From: Desulfofustis limnaeus | GTDB taxonomy: Bacteria > Desulfobacterota > Desulfobulbia > Desulfobulbales > Desulfocapsaceae | DNA: 64,000 bases | Assembly: GCF_023169885.1 (NCBI RefSeq) | Contig: NZ_AP025516.1 | Location: forward strand, 1,364,001 to 1,428,000 | Direction of reading: 5' to 3' | In this document: positions 57,146 to 64,000 of the stretch, piece by piece | How positions within the stretch are numbered: position 1 is the stretch's first letter | How the letters are laid out: the number at the start of each line of letters is the position of its first letter | Notes under the pieces: generated by a model | Databases searched by the model: none | The model's input: the letters and a program-made list of their open reading frames with translations, nothing else | What the model was told of the DNA's origin: nothing | Translations under genes and position numbers: made by a program

Positions 57146-57799
57146 CTAGTGTTCCTGGCGAAGCGCCTTGGGCAGCGAAAAACCAAAGGCTGCAGGATCC
57201 TCGATCAGCGTCGCCTGAAGATGATCGAGCAGCAGTAGTTCCTGGCTTTCCGGTGTGGCGATTGGGGCGGTCGACGGCTGGTTCAGGCGGATTTTGAAGG
57301 TGATCCGGTCCGCCTCTTTGCCGCCCTCGACCAACAGATCACTGCCGCCGGGAATCTGCTGGACAATATGGCATAGCAGGTTAAAGAGCAGTGACAACAA
57401 AACCTGGGGGTTGGTCTGCAGATCAAGCGCGGTCGGGCTGACATGGCTGATCGCGACTTGGCGCATGGCCGCCTGGCGGGCTGAGAGCGCCACCGCCAGC
57501 GTCAGGGTCTCCTCCACGTCAATTCGGGCAATGGGAACGTCGCCGCTGTGGGCGAATCGATTCAGATTCTTCATGATCAGATTCGATCGCGCCACCTGGC
57601 GGATGATGGAGGTCGTTGCGGCCTTGACCCGGTCCCCAGGGACGCAGCCATCGTCGCCGCTCATGGCCGCCAGGTCGTCGAGCAGCCCGGCGTTTTCGTT
57701 GATGATCGAAAGGGTGTTCTTGATCTCGTGTGAGATGGAGGCGGCGATACGGGAGAAGGTGGCGACGCAGATGGTGCTGATGTCCTGATTCGGTTCCAT
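57146..57799 (-). CDS. HisKA-type protein with degenerate ATPase region
   Basis: The 217-residue protein has an H-box (SISHEIKNTLSIINENAGLL, His24) and the following dimer helix. The C-terminal 90 residues resemble a CA domain only at LLSLLFNLLCHIVQ; the G1 and G2 nucleotide motifs are missing. It may be a phosphotransfer or regulatory protein rather than an active kinase. It is the last gene of the leftward signalling cluster, 107 nt after the receiver gene. Confidence 0.75.
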   Translation of the reverse strand: MEPNQDISTICVATFSRIAASISHEIKNTLSIINENAGLLDDLAAMSGDDGCVPGDRVKAATTSIIRQVARSNLIMKNLNRFAHSGDVPIARIDVEETLTLAVALSARQAAMRQVAISHVSPTALDLQTNPQVLLSLLFNLLCHIVQQIPGGSDLLVEGGKEADRITFKIRLNQPSTAPIATPESQELLLLDHLQATLIEDPAAFGFSLPKALRQEH

Positions 57800-57906: not shown

Positions 57907-58287
57907 CTACTGGTGCAAGGCGTCTTCGATCTTCTTGATCAGCCGATTCAGGTCGACCGGTTTCATGATGTAATCGTTGGCGCCGAGCTTCATCCCCTCC
58001 TTGCCGGCCTCGAACGAACCGTGACCGGTGAGGATGAACACCGTCAGATCGGGGTAATCTTGGCGAATCCGGGCCAGCACCTCCAGGCCGTCCAAATCCG
58101 GCATTTTCAGGTCCAGCAACAATACGTCCGGTTTTTCCCTGGCGACCGCCTCCAGCGCCGCCTTGCCGGAATTGACATGGTCGGTCACGAAATTGCGCAG
58201 TTCCAGCCGGGTCTTCAACGTCGAGGCGAATTCCACTTCGTCGTCGGCGATCAACACCTTGATGTTTTTATTTGTCTTCTCTATCAT
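57907..58287 (-). CDS. Single-domain response regulator
   Basis: The 126-residue receiver has an acidic pair at 15-16, phospho-acceptor Asp59 (LLDLKMPD), TGHGS and Lys in IMKPVD. No output domain is present. It overlaps the histidine kinase gene by 20 nt, so the two are translated together and are likely partners. Confidence 0.92.
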   Translation of the reverse strand: MIEKTNKNIKVLIADDEVEFASTLKTRLELRNFVTDHVNSGKAALEAVAREKPDVLLLDLKMPDLDGLEVLARIRQDYPDLTVFILTGHGSFEAGKEGMKLGANDYIMKPVDLNRLIKKIEDALHQ

Positions 58288-59995
58288 GGCTCTCGTTTCG
58301 CAGGGGGATGGTTATGGTGAATGCGGTTCCCTGTCCCAGGTGGGTCCGCACGGTAATATCGCCGCCCAGTTTCTTGATCAGCCCGTAGGTGATGGACAAT
58401 CCCAGGCCGGTCCCTTTGCCCGTTTCCTTGGTGGTGTAGAACGGTTCGAAGATATGCGGGAGGATATCGTCGGGAATGCCCGGCCCGTTGTCCTCGATGA
58501 CCACCCGGATGTCGCCGGCGATGGTGTGGGTCCTGATGCTGATGAGGCCGTCCTTGCCGATGGCGTCGATAGCGTTGTTCAGGACGTTGAGAAACACCTG
58601 TTGCAACTGCATCCGGTCACTGGTCACCTGCGGGAGCAGGTCGTCCAGGTGCAGCTCCAATTTGATGCGGCTGTAGAGCAGGGCGTTGTCAAGAAAGAGC
58701 AACACCTCCTTGATGACGTCGTTGACCTGCAGCAACTCGATGACCACGTCGGTCCGCCTGGCAAAACCTAGGAGCCGATGGGTGATCGCCTTGCAGCGAT
58801 CGACGCTCTGGTTGATGACCCGCAGACTGTCGCTGATTACCTGCTTGTGCTTGAAGTCTTCGGAGAGGATGAGAAAGTCTTCGATCAGTCCGGTCTTCTG
58901 GCCGATGATCGCCAGCGGGTTGTTGATCTCATGGCCTACCCCGGCTGCTAGACGGCCGATGGAGGCCAGCTTGTCGGTATGCTCGGCCTCTTTGAGCATA
59001 CCGATCTGCATGGTGTCGGCCCGGCGGATGACTTCGGTGAGGGCCATCACCAGGGTGCAGACAATGACCATGCTGAGCAGCAGGCAGGTGACCACGATCA
59101 GAAACAGGGTGTTGCGGAAATTCTTCCAATCCGATTGATGGACATAGCTCTTTTTCAAAAGCACCAGGGTCCACGGGGTACGCTTGATGTCGCTGGTGAT
59201 CTGAGACAACTGCTCCTGGTCTCGGGAGACGATCTCCTGAAAGCCCGGTACCAGGTGGATGTCGATCTTGGTCAGCGGTCTCCCGTAATAGCTCGATTCG
59301 GTCTGCAGCACGCCGTCCTCGTCGATCAAAAAGAGATCGTCTGAGGCGTTGGTCTTGATGGTGTTGATGAAGCGCTGCAGGGTGGTGGCGTCGATGGTCG
59401 CCCGCAGGACCCAGGGCTGCTGGGTGAGCGGGTTGATATTGCTGACGGCGATGGCGAAGTGGGGGACGTGGCGATAGCCGGTATAGACCCGGCTGATATA
59501 GAGGTTTTGTTCGATGACCTCCTTGAACCAGGTTTCCCGGGAATAGTTGGCTCCCATCAGGGCATACGGACCGTAATAGGCGCGCTGGATGCCGTCCTGG
59601 TCGATCACCCCCAGGTCGGCGAAGTATACATATTGACGGTTGAGCCGTTCGTACAGGTCGCGTAGGTTGTCGCCGACGATCAGCTCGGCGTAACGGTCGT
59701 TGCGGGCGGTAAACTGAACGATGGAGGTAAGGCTCTCGATCATGTGTTCGATGGATTTGATCTTTCCATCCAGCTGCCACTCCGTCTGTTGTCGTTCGGT
59801 TTTATTGACCAGGTGGCCGTAATTGTGGTAGCCGAGACTGGCCACCACCAGGACCGGCACCATCGAGATCAGCAGCATGATCGAACACAGCATCAGACGC
59901 AAAAGCTGATAGTTTCTACCGGTCAGGCCGTTGCTGATGGAGTTCTTCAGGGAGGCCGGCAACAGCTTCTCAAAAAGGCTTTCCTTGCTTTTCAT
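58268..59995 (-). CDS. Transmembrane sensor histidine kinase with dCache-like domain
   Basis: The 575-residue kinase has a membrane helix near residue 36-58, a periplasmic Cache-like sensor (VIDQDGIQRAYYGPYALMGA ... WFKEVIEQN) and a second helix near 296-320. A HisKA box (AAGVGHEINNPLAIIGQK) and a full HATPase core follow (FLNVLNNAIDAIGKDG, DNGPGIPDD, GKGTGLGLSITYGLI). It would sense an extracellular small molecule and phosphorylate the neighbouring receivers. It starts in an ATGA overlap with the NifX-like gene. Confidence 0.92.
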   Translation of the reverse strand: MKSKESLFEKLLPASLKNSISNGLTGRNYQLLRLMLCSIMLLISMVPVLVVASLGYHNYGHLVNKTERQQTEWQLDGKIKSIEHMIESLTSIVQFTARNDRYAELIVGDNLRDLYERLNRQYVYFADLGVIDQDGIQRAYYGPYALMGANYSRETWFKEVIEQNLYISRVYTGYRHVPHFAIAVSNINPLTQQPWVLRATIDATTLQRFINTIKTNASDDLFLIDEDGVLQTESSYYGRPLTKIDIHLVPGFQEIVSRDQEQLSQITSDIKRTPWTLVLLKKSYVHQSDWKNFRNTLFLIVVTCLLLSMVIVCTLVMALTEVIRRADTMQIGMLKEAEHTDKLASIGRLAAGVGHEINNPLAIIGQKTGLIEDFLILSEDFKHKQVISDSLRVINQSVDRCKAITHRLLGFARRTDVVIELLQVNDVIKEVLLFLDNALLYSRIKLELHLDDLLPQVTSDRMQLQQVFLNVLNNAIDAIGKDGLISIRTHTIAGDIRVVIEDNGPGIPDDILPHIFEPFYTTKETGKGTGLGLSITYGLIKKLGGDITVRTHLGQGTAFTITIPLRNESHDREDK

Positions 59996-60348
59996 AGGGT
60001 CAGTACAGAGTTTACCGAAGAGGGGAGGATAGTTCCCGATTCCAGGTTTCCCGACAACACTTTTTTAACTGCATCCTGCCAGCTGCCGATGACCGCATCG
60101 TGAATCGCCACTTTCTTCCAGGCCAAAAAATTATAGTGCAACTCCTCGATCCCGCCGCAGACCAGATCGGTTATGTTCTCCTCGACGATCATCTGGCACA
60201 GGCCTTCGTCGGAAGGCCGCTCCATGATGATCGTGCGCGGCTCGCCGAGGATCTCCCCGTCTTCGAACCTGACGATGAGAATCTCGGTGGCCAGATCGAA
60301 GCGAGGCGCGATGAAGTCGCCTTGGAGCGGGATAAGCAGTTTTCTCAT
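59992..60348 (-). CDS. NifX/NifB-type dinitrogenase cofactor-like small protein
   Basis: The 118-residue protein shows the NifX-like fold text MRKLLIPLQGDFIAPRFDLA and VEENITDLVCGGIEELHYNF, with one Cys in the CGGIEE loop. NifX-type domains bind cofactor precursors, but similar lone domains occur without nitrogenase. There is no nif gene in the window. The ATG at 60348 is chosen for its distance from GAGGG. It overlaps the histidine kinase start and begins 9 nt after the sigma-54 regulator. Confidence 0.75.
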   Translation of the reverse strand: MRKLLIPLQGDFIAPRFDLATEILIVRFEDGEILGEPRTIIMERPSDEGLCQMIVEENITDLVCGGIEELHYNFLAWKKVAIHDAVIGSWQDAVKKVLSGNLESGTILPSSVNSVLTL

Positions 60349-60357
60349 GATCATCCC

Positions 60358-61755
60358 TCAGCCGAGCAGTCCGTACTTTTTCATCTTGCGCCATAATTTC
60401 ATTCGGCCCCACCCCAGATCGGCGGCCGTATTGATGCGGTTGCCGCCGTTTTTCTTCAAGGCGTCGACAATCATCTGGCGCTCTATGCTGCTCCAACTGC
60501 TGCCGTTGCCGTTGTCGACGGCCGGCGGATTGGACGGTTGTTGTTTCTCGTCCGGTTCGCTGGCTACGGTTACCGGTGGTTGGGCGGGGGCAACGGCCTC
60601 CGGCTGTTTCTCGAAGATATAGGGAGGCAATTGCTCCTTGTTGATCTTCTTGCCCTTGCAGATGTTGACGGCATACTCGACGATATTCTGCAACTCTCTG
60701 ACATTGCCTGGAAAGTGGTAGGAAAGAAGGGTCTGCAGGGCGCTCGGCGTAAAGCCGGTGACGGTTTTGCCCAAGGCTCTGGTGTATTTCTCCAGGAAAT
60801 GATCGAGCAGCATCCGGGTGTCGTTCTCCCGTTCGCGCAGCGGCGGCAGGTGCACGTGCAGCACGTTGAGGCGGTAATATAAATCTTCCCGGAAGGTATT
60901 GTTGCGCACCTGTTCGCGCAGGGGGCGATGCGTCGCGGCGATGATCCGCACGTCGACGCTGACGCTGTGCTCGCCACCCACCGGTACGAATTGTCGATCG
61001 TCAAGAACGGACAGCAGCTTCACCTGCAGAGGCATCGGCATGTCCCCGATCTCGGTCAGAAAAAGGGTCCCGCGGTCGGCTATCTTGAACATTCCCGGCT
61101 TGTTTCGCGAGGCTCCGGTGAAGGCCCCCTTGACGTGGCCGAACAGCTCCGATTCCAGCAGTCCGAGAGGCAGCGCGCCGCAGTTGACCTTGATGAAGGG
61201 GAACCGGGCCCGGGCCGATTTCTTGTGGATAATTTCGGCAATCTTGTCTTTGCCGGTCCCGGTCTCTCCGGTGATCAGCACAGAGGCGTCGGTGTGGGCC
61301 ATGAGCGGGATCAGGTCCAGAACCTTCTGCATTTTCGGGCTATGCCCGATCAGCTCCGGCGGAGCGCCGGCAACGCTGTCACCGCCGTTGTCTCCTTTGC
61401 CGGACGGGACGTTTTCGGCGATGACCAGCAGCCCTGCCGTCCCGTTCTTGCCATTGGCCAGAGGGGAGATGTGATACTGAACCGGCACCTTGTGGCGATA
61501 GCCGTTGAGGATATCGCCGCTGACGGAAACCGCTTCGCCGGTCCTTATCACCTGCGAGTAGAGTTGGCCCCTGGAGTTGCCCACATTGGAGCGAACCACC
61601 AACTCACCATGTACCCCCTTGACGCGATCGGCCTCGTATCCGGTCGCCGCCACCATGAGTCGGTTCATGGTGACGATCCGAAACGACGAGTCGAGAATCA
61701 TCGACGGGTAGGGTATCCCTTCCAGCAATGTCAGGATGGCCGGTTGCCGAAACAT
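60358..61755 (-). CDS. PAS-domain sigma-54 activator
   Basis: The 465-residue protein has a PAS domain (residues about 7-115, MILDSSFRIVTMNRLMVAAT), an AAA+ domain (Walker A GETGTGKD near 163, intact GAFTGA at 210-215) and a Fis-type HTH at the end. Walker B reads LFLTEIGD, with Thr234 where most activators have the Mg-binding Asp (LDEIGE). There is no receiver, so it should respond to a ligand or to partner proteins. GGAG precedes the ATG. Two receivers and a kinase are encoded on both sides. Confidence 0.88.
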   Translation of the reverse strand: MFRQPAILTLLEGIPYPSMILDSSFRIVTMNRLMVAATGYEADRVKGVHGELVVRSNVGNSRGQLYSQVIRTGEAVSVSGDILNGYRHKVPVQYHISPLANGKNGTAGLLVIAENVPSGKGDNGGDSVAGAPPELIGHSPKMQKVLDLIPLMAHTDASVLITGETGTGKDKIAEIIHKKSARARFPFIKVNCGALPLGLLESELFGHVKGAFTGASRNKPGMFKIADRGTLFLTEIGDMPMPLQVKLLSVLDDRQFVPVGGEHSVSVDVRIIAATHRPLREQVRNNTFREDLYYRLNVLHVHLPPLRERENDTRMLLDHFLEKYTRALGKTVTGFTPSALQTLLSYHFPGNVRELQNIVEYAVNICKGKKINKEQLPPYIFEKQPEAVAPAQPPVTVASEPDEKQQPSNPPAVDNGNGSSWSSIERQMIVDALKKNGGNRINTAADLGWGRMKLWRKMKKYGLLG

Positions 61756-61875: not shown

Positions 61876-62316
61876 TTACCAGGGTTTGCTCGAGATGATC
61901 TTGTGTATCTCTTCTTTGGTCTTTTCCTGCAGGATAAGAATTCGCTTGTTTTTCGCCTCCTTGATCTTCTCCAGCAACTGCCGAATGTCGACCGGCTTCT
62001 CCAGAAAGTCCTCCGCCCCGAGCTTCATCGCTTCCACGCCCGTCTTGATCGAGCCATGACCGGTAAGCATGATGATTTCCGCCTCCGGATGGTCCGCCTT
62101 GATTCGCTTCAGAGTCTCCAGGCCGTCCATGCCGGGCATGGCCAAATCGAGAACGATGGCATCGAACTCCTGACGATCCACCTGGGAGATCGCCTCGGCC
62201 CCGCTGGTCGCCGTGGAGACTTTCAAATGACGAGCCTGGAGCCGCTGGGCAAGGGATTCGATGAAATCCTCTTCGTCGTCGACCAGGAGAATCTTGGCAT
62301 CTAGCTGCTGATCCAT
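61876..62316 (-). CDS. Response regulator with C-terminal helix
   Basis: The 146-residue protein has a receiver domain (acidic pair 13-14, phospho-acceptor Asp57 in VLDLAMPG, TGHGS, Lys in LEKPVD). A basic C-terminal helix follows (NKRILILQEKTKEEIHKIIS), with no known output domain. Its sequence is close to that of the other receivers in the cluster. It lies 28 nt after the kinase-like fusion gene. Confidence 0.9.
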   Translation of the reverse strand: MDQQLDAKILLVDDEEDFIESLAQRLQARHLKVSTATSGAEAISQVDRQEFDAIVLDLAMPGMDGLETLKRIKADHPEAEIIMLTGHGSIKTGVEAMKLGAEDFLEKPVDIRQLLEKIKEAKNKRILILQEKTKEEIHKIISSKPW

Positions 62317-62344: not shown

Positions 62345-63571
62345 TCAGGCCGGCTCGCCTTCTTCGTTGCGTTGTCTCACTTTCTCGTTGGCCGCCTTGA
62401 TGGTCGTCGACAACTCTTCGATATCAACCGGTTTGTTCATGTAGGCGAAGGCACCCAGCTCCATGCATTGCTTCATATCCTCATTGGTCCCGTGACCGGT
62501 GAGGATAATGACCTCCACCTCAGGGGCCAGTTCCTTGGTTCTCCTGAGGACTTCGACGCCGTGGAGGCCGGGCATTTTCAGGTCGAGGACCATGACCTCA
62601 GGCCGATCCTGGGTTACCAGCTCCAGGGCGTCAGCTCCGTTGTACACCCCGTAGGTTCCGACATCGCGGCTGATCAACCGCTGCGACACGGTTTCGACGA
62701 ATTCTTTCTCGTCATCGACGAACAGCACCTTGGAGGGCAATTCGAATTTTTGCCGACGATAGATCGATTCGCGAAAGTTCTTGCTCCGCTCGACATTGAC
62801 GATGGTGACACCGGCGATGGGAGTGATCAGATCAGCCAGCTCCTGCTGGAATTTGCTGTAGTTCAGGACGTTTTTATCGACGACCAGGGTGACGCCACCG
62901 TTTTTCACATGGGCAGCCACTTTATGCCCGGCCGCCAGCAAGTGCTTCTCAACCTCGGATTCCAGGCGCAGATCAACGATGGCTTGACGGGATTCGGCAT
63001 TCTGCAGCACGGACGTGGTGTGAAAACGCTTGGTGATGGTGTCGAGCAGCTCTTCCCGGCTCTTTTTTTCGACCGGGATCACCATATCGTACAAAGAGGA
63101 GTCGTACGCTTCTTTCTGGAACAGAAAGTCGGTCCAGGTGTAGGCGCTGACATCGTCGGCCTTGACTCGTTTCTTGGCATCCCGTTGCGACAGACCCTGC
63201 TTGACGGCGTAATCGATCCGCCCCTGCTTGGTATCCACCACCAGGACCCTGAGAACGTGCGTCACTTGGGGGGGGATCAGAGCCGTGAGGAAGCCATGGA
63301 AAAGATATTGACGGGAGTCGTCGAGTCGTTCGGCGAGGATGGCCTTGAACAGATTGACCGCCTTTTCTTTTTCCAGGGTGAATTGGTTGAAAACGGAAGT
63401 CTTGCCGTACATGAAATTTTTCAGCCGTTCCCTGTTGATGGGGCATCGGGCGGTGGCTTCTTCGACGAGATCGGCATCACGGTAGATTGCGAGCTCCAGG
63501 TGCTTCGACAGGTCGTCGATGATGTCTTCGCCAGGGGTGAACGTGCAAGGGAAAATGGCTATTGATGACAT
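62345..63571 (-). CDS. Cytidylate-kinase-like / BON-like / receiver fusion protein
   Basis: The 408-residue protein has three parts. Residues 1-185 read like the cytidylate kinase-2 family (AIYRDADLVEEATAR near 30, HVLRVLVVDTKQGRI near 105, SSLYDMVIPVEKKSREELLD near 160). The P-loop at residues 6-20 (IFPCTFTPGEDIIDD) has lost the glycine pattern. Residues about 190-262 resemble a BON domain (GHKVAAHVKNGGVTLVVDKN). Residues 281-400 are a receiver with Asp330. GAGG precedes the ATG at 63571; the longer frame to 63730 is a repeat artefact. It opens the cluster. Confidence 0.75.
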   Translation of the reverse strand: MSSIAIFPCTFTPGEDIIDDLSKHLELAIYRDADLVEEATARCPINRERLKNFMYGKTSVFNQFTLEKEKAVNLFKAILAERLDDSRQYLFHGFLTALIPPQVTHVLRVLVVDTKQGRIDYAVKQGLSQRDAKKRVKADDVSAYTWTDFLFQKEAYDSSLYDMVIPVEKKSREELLDTITKRFHTTSVLQNAESRQAIVDLRLESEVEKHLLAAGHKVAAHVKNGGVTLVVDKNVLNYSKFQQELADLITPIAGVTIVNVERSKNFRESIYRRQKFELPSKVLFVDDEKEFVETVSQRLISRDVGTYGVYNGADALELVTQDRPEVMVLDLKMPGLHGVEVLRRTKELAPEVEVIILTGHGTNEDMKQCMELGAFAYMNKPVDIEELSTTIKAANEKVRQRNEEGEPA

Positions 63572-63594
63572 GACATATCCTCTTGATAAGTGGT

Positions 63595-63739
63595 GGGAAT
63601 CTTGGAAAATTACCATTTCGCCCCGGATCGTCGTTGCGCATTCACCTTTGATCCTGGCACTATCACGTATGTGCCTGCGGTAAGATGTTTTTGCGCGCTT
63701 CGATCTTGAACGAAATTCCGAATGTTTCAAGCTCCCCTG
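63595..63739. mobile_element. MITE-like repeat R1, copy B
   Basis: Left end CTTGGAAAATTACCATTTCG (63601-63620) and right end, read back, CTTGAAACATTCGGAATTTCG (63711-63731) are imperfect inverted repeats. The inside matches copy A at 35883-36015 base for base at about 80% by eye. It lies in the predicted leader of the signalling cluster, 24 nt before the first start codon. Confidence 0.7.
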
Positions 63740-64000
63740 GTTATAGGTAGTGTTACCTGTTCACTGTCTCGTTGCTTTCGTTGCCATACCTACTGCACGT
63801 TTTGTTCCTGTTACAAAGTGATATTTCAAAATATAATAAATACAGTTAGATAAACGATTTTTGCGAGATTTTTCGAGCATTGTGACGAAATGATACGTGT
63901 CTGCAAAATGTAACAAATAATAACGAATTGTAAAGATTTACTCGCCTTTGGTTCCGATTGGGTAGGTTACGATAGCTTGATTTGTCCTTTTGTTACCATG
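63740..64000. other. AT-rich upstream region with repeated TGTTAC motifs
   Basis: No gene is seen. TGTTAC or its complement occurs at 63751-63756, 63809-63814, 63910-63915 and 63991-63996, in both orientations. The stretch is far more A/T-rich than the coding DNA and probably holds the promoter of the signalling cluster. Confidence 0.4.
63794..63810 (-). promoter_or_regulatory. Weak sigma-54-like promoter candidate for the signalling cluster
   Basis: On the minus strand the site reads AGGAACAAAACGTGCA. GG and GC are separated by exactly 10 bases, with GGAAC for GGCAC and GTGCA for TTGCA. The leader would be about 210 nt and would include repeat R1 copy B. The cluster itself encodes a sigma-54 activator, which makes autoregulation possible. 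Confidence 0.35.

Follow-up and report, generated by a model that had tools for sequence, protein, structure and literature searches.

A putative response regulator with a loop-less, kinase-like output usually lies beside sulfate-type transporter genes in Desulfofustis limnaeus and its relatives

What would a phospho-receiver control when the domains ahead of it are a nucleotide kinase fold without its glycine-rich loop and a BON-like region? The question is raised by a gene in a 64,000 nucleotide stretch of the Desulfofustis limnaeus genome (hereafter, the window). Our best explanation, to which we assign a probability of about 0.5, is that the encoded protein is a response regulator with a dead kinase-like and BON-like output, switched at Asp330 and acting on an anion-transport partner, probably one for sulfate. 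The pseudokinase-plus-switch anatomy is likely to be right.

The gene starts with an ATG at 63571 and its stop codon ends at 62345 on the minus strand, the coordinates given by the first-pass annotation, with AAGAGGA a few bases 5′ of the ATG (Table 1). The plus strand across the same interval also contains an open frame, of 416 amino acids, which is taken as antisense. Just two Pfam families score over their cut-offs in the 408 amino acid protein: Cytidylate_kin2 (PF13189; residues 14 to 167, 44 bits, E = 3.5e-11, cut-off 28) and Response_reg (residues 282 to 391, 90.4 bits, cut-off 30.2). The two other Pfam rows are weak and not DNA-binding, and none of the four is a DNA-binding output domain. 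Among the 25 of 101 NCBIfam matches that were listed, all fall on the receiver and all are below their own cut-offs, and residues 1 to 275 matched no NCBIfam family at E up to 0.01. We rejected the possibility that the frame is decayed or arose by chance: 68 distinct fused relatives have open frames, and the family occurs widely, with matches in 152 of 297 genomes of the phylum and 74 of 144 genomes of the class (counts that include unfused and distant relatives). The D. glycolicus protein shares 78% identity with it (dN 0.144), and the synonymous sites are saturated, so no whole-gene ratio is given. Plasmid records also match (2119 in total), and no single place in them covers more than 80% of the query; the best coverage among the 10 matches listed is 71%, at 25.6% identity. 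These plasmid matches are probably driven by the receiver.

Table 1. Features of the 408 amino acid protein gene and of the genes that follow it, in window coordinates
Feature	Position	Strand	Remarks
Cytidylate_kin2-like / BON-like / receiver protein gene, 408 aa	62345..63571	-	stop codon included
Predicted NMP-kinase fold, Cytidylate_kin2-like, catalytic loop lost, residues 1-185	63017..63571	-	PF13189 44 bits; Z 19.6 to 3hdt_A
FPCTFTPGED at the glycine-rich-loop position, residues 7-16	63524..63553	-	
BON-like domain, residues 190-262, helix-strand-strand-helix-strand	62786..63004	-	
Receiver domain, residues 280-403	62363..62734	-	PF00072 90.4 bits; Asp330 codon 62582-62584
Stand-alone receiver protein, next in presumed operon	61876..62316	-	PF00072 116 bits
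PAS - sigma-54 AAA - HTH_8 protein without receiver	60358..61755	-	PF00158 229.6 bits, PF02954 45.2 bits
NifX-like small protein	59992..60354	-	PF02579 21.7 bits, below cut-off 26.3
dCache sensor histidine kinase	58268..59995	-	PF02743, PF00512, PF02518 over cut-off
Stand-alone receiver protein	57907..58287	-	PF00072 106 bits
HisKA-like protein, 217 aa, no Pfam ATPase match	57146..57799	-	PF00512 only, 19.6 bits, below cut-off 26.9

A structure predicted for residues 1 to 275 from 29 sequences has a mean pLDDT of 92.6, and the predicted full-length model has a mean of 90.9. Among 991 PDB chains aligned, the best folds, which bear on residues 1 to 187, are 3hdt_A (Z 19.6; 163 residues at 2.2 Å) and 3fdi_A (Z 19.0), with CMP kinases ranking after them (3w90 at Z 12.9, others below). 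The same two entries, a putative kinase and an uncharacterized protein, respectively, are the only matches under E 0.001 in a profile search of PDB sequences. We take both to be members of PF13189, a family matched by all 29 members of our alignment A2 (E up to 1). As predicted by the model, the kinase-like domain is an NMP-kinase fold, and the earlier suggestion that residues 1 to 185 are cytidylate kinase-2-like agrees with both the profile score and the fold comparison. The protein resembles Cytidylate_kin2 members in its score over the family cut-off and in its nearest folds. It differs from them in the absence of the glycine-rich loop and of two arginines, and in the gain of the BON-like and receiver domains.

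The protein aligns to PF13189 from profile position 12 onward, and the loop belongs to the unmatched initial part. We compared 119 distinct relatives, of which 68 have a receiver (“fused”), 43 lack it (“unfused”) and eight are “canonical,” a class that simply comprises the rows below 50 bits and includes one that sits among the unfused rows in the tree. Six of the eight canonical proteins, and none of the 43 unfused or 68 fused ones, have a G[ASTV]G[GAS] loop; an intact but hidden P-loop is therefore rejected by the alignment. The loop series runs from SREPGSGGG or SRQYGAGGK (canonical) via SRGSYSRGK (unfused) to FSGIFC or FPCTFTPGED (fused). A Walker-like GxxGxGK[ST] or GxxxxGK[ST] sequence was found in two of the eight canonical rows. 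As the PF13189 loop is itself variant, the fused proteins have lost an already variant loop. The first-pass annotation, which described a lost P-loop replaced by FPCTFTPGED, was thus correct about the loss and the replacement, but a typical P-loop was not what the family had to lose.

Two motif arginines show a similar series. The arginine of the GR motif (position 94) is present in seven of eight canonical and 15 of 43 unfused proteins and in no fused protein (41 of which have Phe), and that of the DxxR motif (position 143) in seven of eight, 30 of 43 and 12 of 68, respectively. The D. limnaeus protein has F94 and A143 where canonical rows have Arg. Given these losses, a plain cytidylate kinase was rejected. 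In contrast to what was lost, G93, R118 and D162 are kept in all 68 fused proteins, which also share a specific motif, K-T-S-V-F-N-x-F-T-x-E-x-E, at positions 57 to 69. Within it, F61 occurs in 68/68 fused, 3/43 unfused and 1/8 canonical proteins, and E67 in 67/68 fused vs. 9/43 unfused proteins. The replacement of the loop is itself conserved: position 11 is Phe or Tyr in 60 of 68 fused proteins. The conserved replacement and the fusion-specific motif indicate that the change at the site is a fixed rebuilding rather than drift.

A rebuilt pocket with invariant residues and a loop replacement that is far from random could in principle retain enzymatic activity of another kind. We consider this very unlikely, as the family-type loop and the GR arginine are missing throughout the fused set, the DxxR arginine is gone from 56 of the 68 proteins, and position 15 is acidic in 38 of them. 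From these losses, the kinase-like domain is predicted to be catalytically dead.

In the model, residues 192 to 262 are arranged as helix-strand-strand-helix-strand, which is the BON topology as described for DolP (PMC7806268). The D. limnaeus protein itself has no match to the Pfam BON family (PF04972) at E up to 1, and six of the 29 members of A2 do match it (best E 8.2e-4). When profiles of the middle region were compared with 20 BON domains using hhalign, the fused group gave a probability of 93.7 (E = 1.9e-7, a single comparison) and the unfused group 97.3 (E = 2e-11). Against five BON domains taken from kinase-BON relatives, the fused group reached only 71.8 (E = 3.5e-5). The relatives that supplied these five domains are unfused, and in each the kinase-like domain is followed by a BON match over cut-off. 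The order of elements and the profile match place this region close to the BON proteins (OsmY, DolP, Kbp), in line with its original label as BON-like. The table of 12 main clusters in the DolP paper contains no kinase-BON architecture, and “cytidylate kinase” and “PF13189” are each indexed once for that paper but were not found in its main text, so the pairing may already be in print there (PMC7806268). According to the same paper, BON domains are not general phospholipid binders (PMC7806268), thus membrane binding should not be assumed for this protein.

The receiver at the C-terminus appears intact. Residues D286, D287, D330, T358 and K380, presumably the catalytic residues of the domain, are found in every fused protein of alignment A1 (38 of 38); its three rows without a receiver have gaps at these positions. 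The fold, the missing loop and these residues give good support to the earlier proposal that a pseudokinase domain is fused to a receiver whose phosphorylation site is intact: profile and structure searches did find nucleotide kinases, and no intact P-loop came to light. The sensing or scaffolding role proposed along with it, under the control of Asp330, is a possibility. The protein resembles response regulators with atypical outputs (PF00072) in having a receiver with the usual key residues, and differs from them in that a dead NMP-kinase fold and a BON-like domain precede the receiver. No description of the kinase-like/BON-like/receiver fusion was found in literature searches on PF13189 or on cytidylate kinase together with BON, response regulators, histidine kinases or transporters. 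This Pfam family also occurs in a Chloroflexi gene table.

In a quick tree from which the loop columns were left out, all 68 fused rows fall into one 70-row clade (SH-aLRT 100). The other two rows, which lack the receiver and sit on a long branch, are neighbouring paralogues from D. limnaeus (L047:11955-13001) and D. glycolicus (L049:14718-15587). Their placement fits a local duplication with loss of the receiver, and the tree as a whole suggests a single origin of the fusion followed by one receiver loss. The D. limnaeus genome encodes three kinase-BON proteins, namely the one studied here, its paralogue some 3.6 kb from it and a third, distant protein. The distant protein is unfused (L063:7301-8134; G000 C1 2797292-2798095), and its gene is about 6.7 kb from that of a long SulP permease.

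The gene for the fused protein heads a tight run that continues with a receiver, the PAS-sigma-54 protein, the NifX-like protein, the dCache histidine kinase, another receiver and the HisKA-only protein (Table 1). The PAS matches of the sigma-54 protein are below cut-off (PAS_4 at 18 bits vs. 23.1). The HisKA-only protein has weak NCBIfam matches to parts of several kinases and is possibly a phosphotransfer protein; it has a similar position in many loci of the order. The NifX-like protein turns up again among the signalling genes of many loci linked to SLC13. On the divergent side, beyond the window, are genes for a receiver, a CBS protein, an SLC13 transporter and the paralogue, followed by what are presumably a histidine kinase, a sigma-54 protein with a receiver and a pair of universal-stress-like proteins (labels given in part by likeness to window genes), with a TauE protein further out. 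Many of these genes are found together again in other loci of the order with SLC13, and elsewhere with TauE or a long SulP-STAS permease. Transporters that have CBS-domain and universal-stress proteins next to them are a known kind of arrangement. The locus is reminiscent of it in that a CBS protein neighbours the gene and, in the related locus L099, a universal stress protein is present, but the fused protein belongs to different families.

The sigma-54 protein of the gene run points to transcription as much as to the transporter itself. In an alternative that we consider possible but less probable than not, one phosphorylation state of the fused protein would bind or release this receiver-less protein and thereby switch the transporter genes, leaving the transporter untouched. 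Of 30 fused loci, 17 have a sigma-54 gene within 4 kb, which is consistent with such a role, and the other 13 have none in that range, which argues against it. The 777 bp divergent upstream region (L047:8572-9348, i.e., window 63572-64000 plus 348 bases) contains GTAACA seven times, counting both strands, and the other 19.2 kb of the locus do not contain it at all, with the caveat that this motif was picked after looking. The D. glycolicus upstream region has no GTAACA in 600 bp and instead has repeated ATCAACC/GTTGATA. From their sequences, these repeats are possible regulator sites that differ between the species. A scan for sigma-54 promoters detected none in 14 upstream regions and equally none in five control loci.

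We consider linkage to transporter genes to be the strongest clue to function, as judged from gene order. In 14 genomes (chosen for good assemblies and known matches, not at random), an SLC13, SulP or TauE gene lies no more than 10 kb from 32 of 40 kinase-BON genes, compared with about 2.2 expected from gene density; the other eight have none in this range. The 40 genes remain from 50 matching rows after removal of one fragment, seven short kinase-only matches and two pieces of one relative, which itself adjoins a transporter. Each transporter gene was counted once, with second segments dropped, and distances were measured between the gene midpoint and the point where the transporter match begins. 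Four of the transporter rows below cut-off were left out and a fifth, an SLC13 of G000 remote from the cluster, was retained. Each of the 15 fused genes has a transporter within 4.7 kb, the nearest being SLC13 for seven, SulP for seven and TauE for one.

Similar counts were obtained from sets of loci that were partly hand-chosen and in which CitMHS was also counted as a transporter. Among 30 fused loci flanked by 3 kb or more, 26 have a transporter within 4 kb (four do not) and 28 have another receiver in that range; among 24 unfused loci, 17 have a transporter within 4 kb and 16 a separate receiver gene. That the transporter family varies and the linkage persists speaks against mere shared ancestry of one cluster. 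Kinase-like proteins of about 500 amino acids are also encoded beside TauE (L097:4562-6124, L098:5588-7108 and L104:4831-6342); the second half had no Pfam match in the two that were scanned, from L098 and L104. In L099, SLC13 and SulP genes surround the kinase-like gene. As a lead only, this layout recalls two transporter genes of Desulfobacterium autotrophicum that are seven locus tags apart in the account given by a 2018 review (PMC5840216).

The family also tracks aprA, a marker of sulfate respiration, which is over cut-off in 41 of 99 genomes of the phylum searched. It was found in 22 of 24 genomes with a kinase-BON match under 1e-40 vs. 19 of 75 others (Fisher 7e-9, a value not to be taken at face value given that the genomes are related and not independent). 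The threshold is one of three tried; the others gave 11/13 vs. 30/86 (1e-68) and 28/39 vs. 13/60 (1e-15). Fusion-type matches occur in two genomes (G099 and G144) where aprA does not exceed its cut-off, and 19 genomes with aprA contain no close kinase-BON relative.

The linked transporters might carry carboxylates, sulfite, sulfonates or another oxyanion, in which case the uptake under control would be of something other than sulfate. We regard this as unlikely. The linked SLC13 proteins that were scanned do also match CitMHS, the citrate transporter family, CitMHS is the best or sole match of three further neighbours, and the 2018 review doubts sulfate transport by two long SulP proteins (PMC5840216). 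Against this, the linkage spans SLC13/DASS, SulP and TauE/TSUP, the families in which that review seeks sulfate transporters, and it follows aprA. In addition, DASS and SulP genes of Desulfobacterium autotrophicum are expressed at high sulfate according to one passage of the review, which is inconsistent here, as elsewhere it assigns the same DASS gene to low sulfate (PMC5840216). The SulP proteins treated there average 710 amino acids and have a 90 amino acid insertion (PMC5840216). The SulP neighbours in L061, L062, L099, L111 and L112 have 708 to 718 amino acids, and split family matches where scanned, and fit this long group by length only. The same source places candidate sulfate-transporter genes mostly far from pathway genes, seemingly at random, and the terms “cytidylate,” “response regulator” and “two-component” do not appear in its accessible text (PMC5840216). 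Overall, the function most likely concerns the transport of an anion, probably sulfate, as the linkage evidence suggests.

Returning to an Asp330-switched output that acts on an anion-transport partner, we envisage the following mechanism. Phosphorylation of Asp330 would depend on the dCache histidine kinase encoded in the gene run, perhaps by a relay via the small receivers and the HisKA-only protein. The phosphorylation state would then alter how the kinase-BON module meets its partner. That partner would most likely be found in an SLC13, SulP or TauE anion-transport system, with sulfate the probable substrate in these sulfate respirers. The action on the transporter would be direct, in whichever direction the control may run, and anion uptake would thereby track an external signal together with the state of the cell. 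A more specific version, which we hold to be improbable, is that the kinase-like pocket is an adenylate sensor (for AMP, ATP or adenylyl sulfate) that, with the receiver, would gate SLC13 and SulP directly in a PII-like manner. The pocket does retain R118, D162 and, in most cases, D140.

If the adenylate-sensor version were true, the protein would integrate an external signal with the energy or sulfur state of the cell, adenylyl sulfate being the first intermediate of sulfate respiration. With the anatomy described here, the outputs of two-component systems come to include a kinase-shaped pseudoenzyme, along with a series that leads from a family-type loop to its complete loss. Sulfate respiration begins with the uptake of sulfate, for which sulfate reducers have many candidate transporters. 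The usual place of the relatives beside sulfate-type transporters suggests a previously undescribed way of controlling anion uptake, and if particular SLC13, SulP and TauE genes are marked by a conserved family of regulators, they would form a testable list of transporters.
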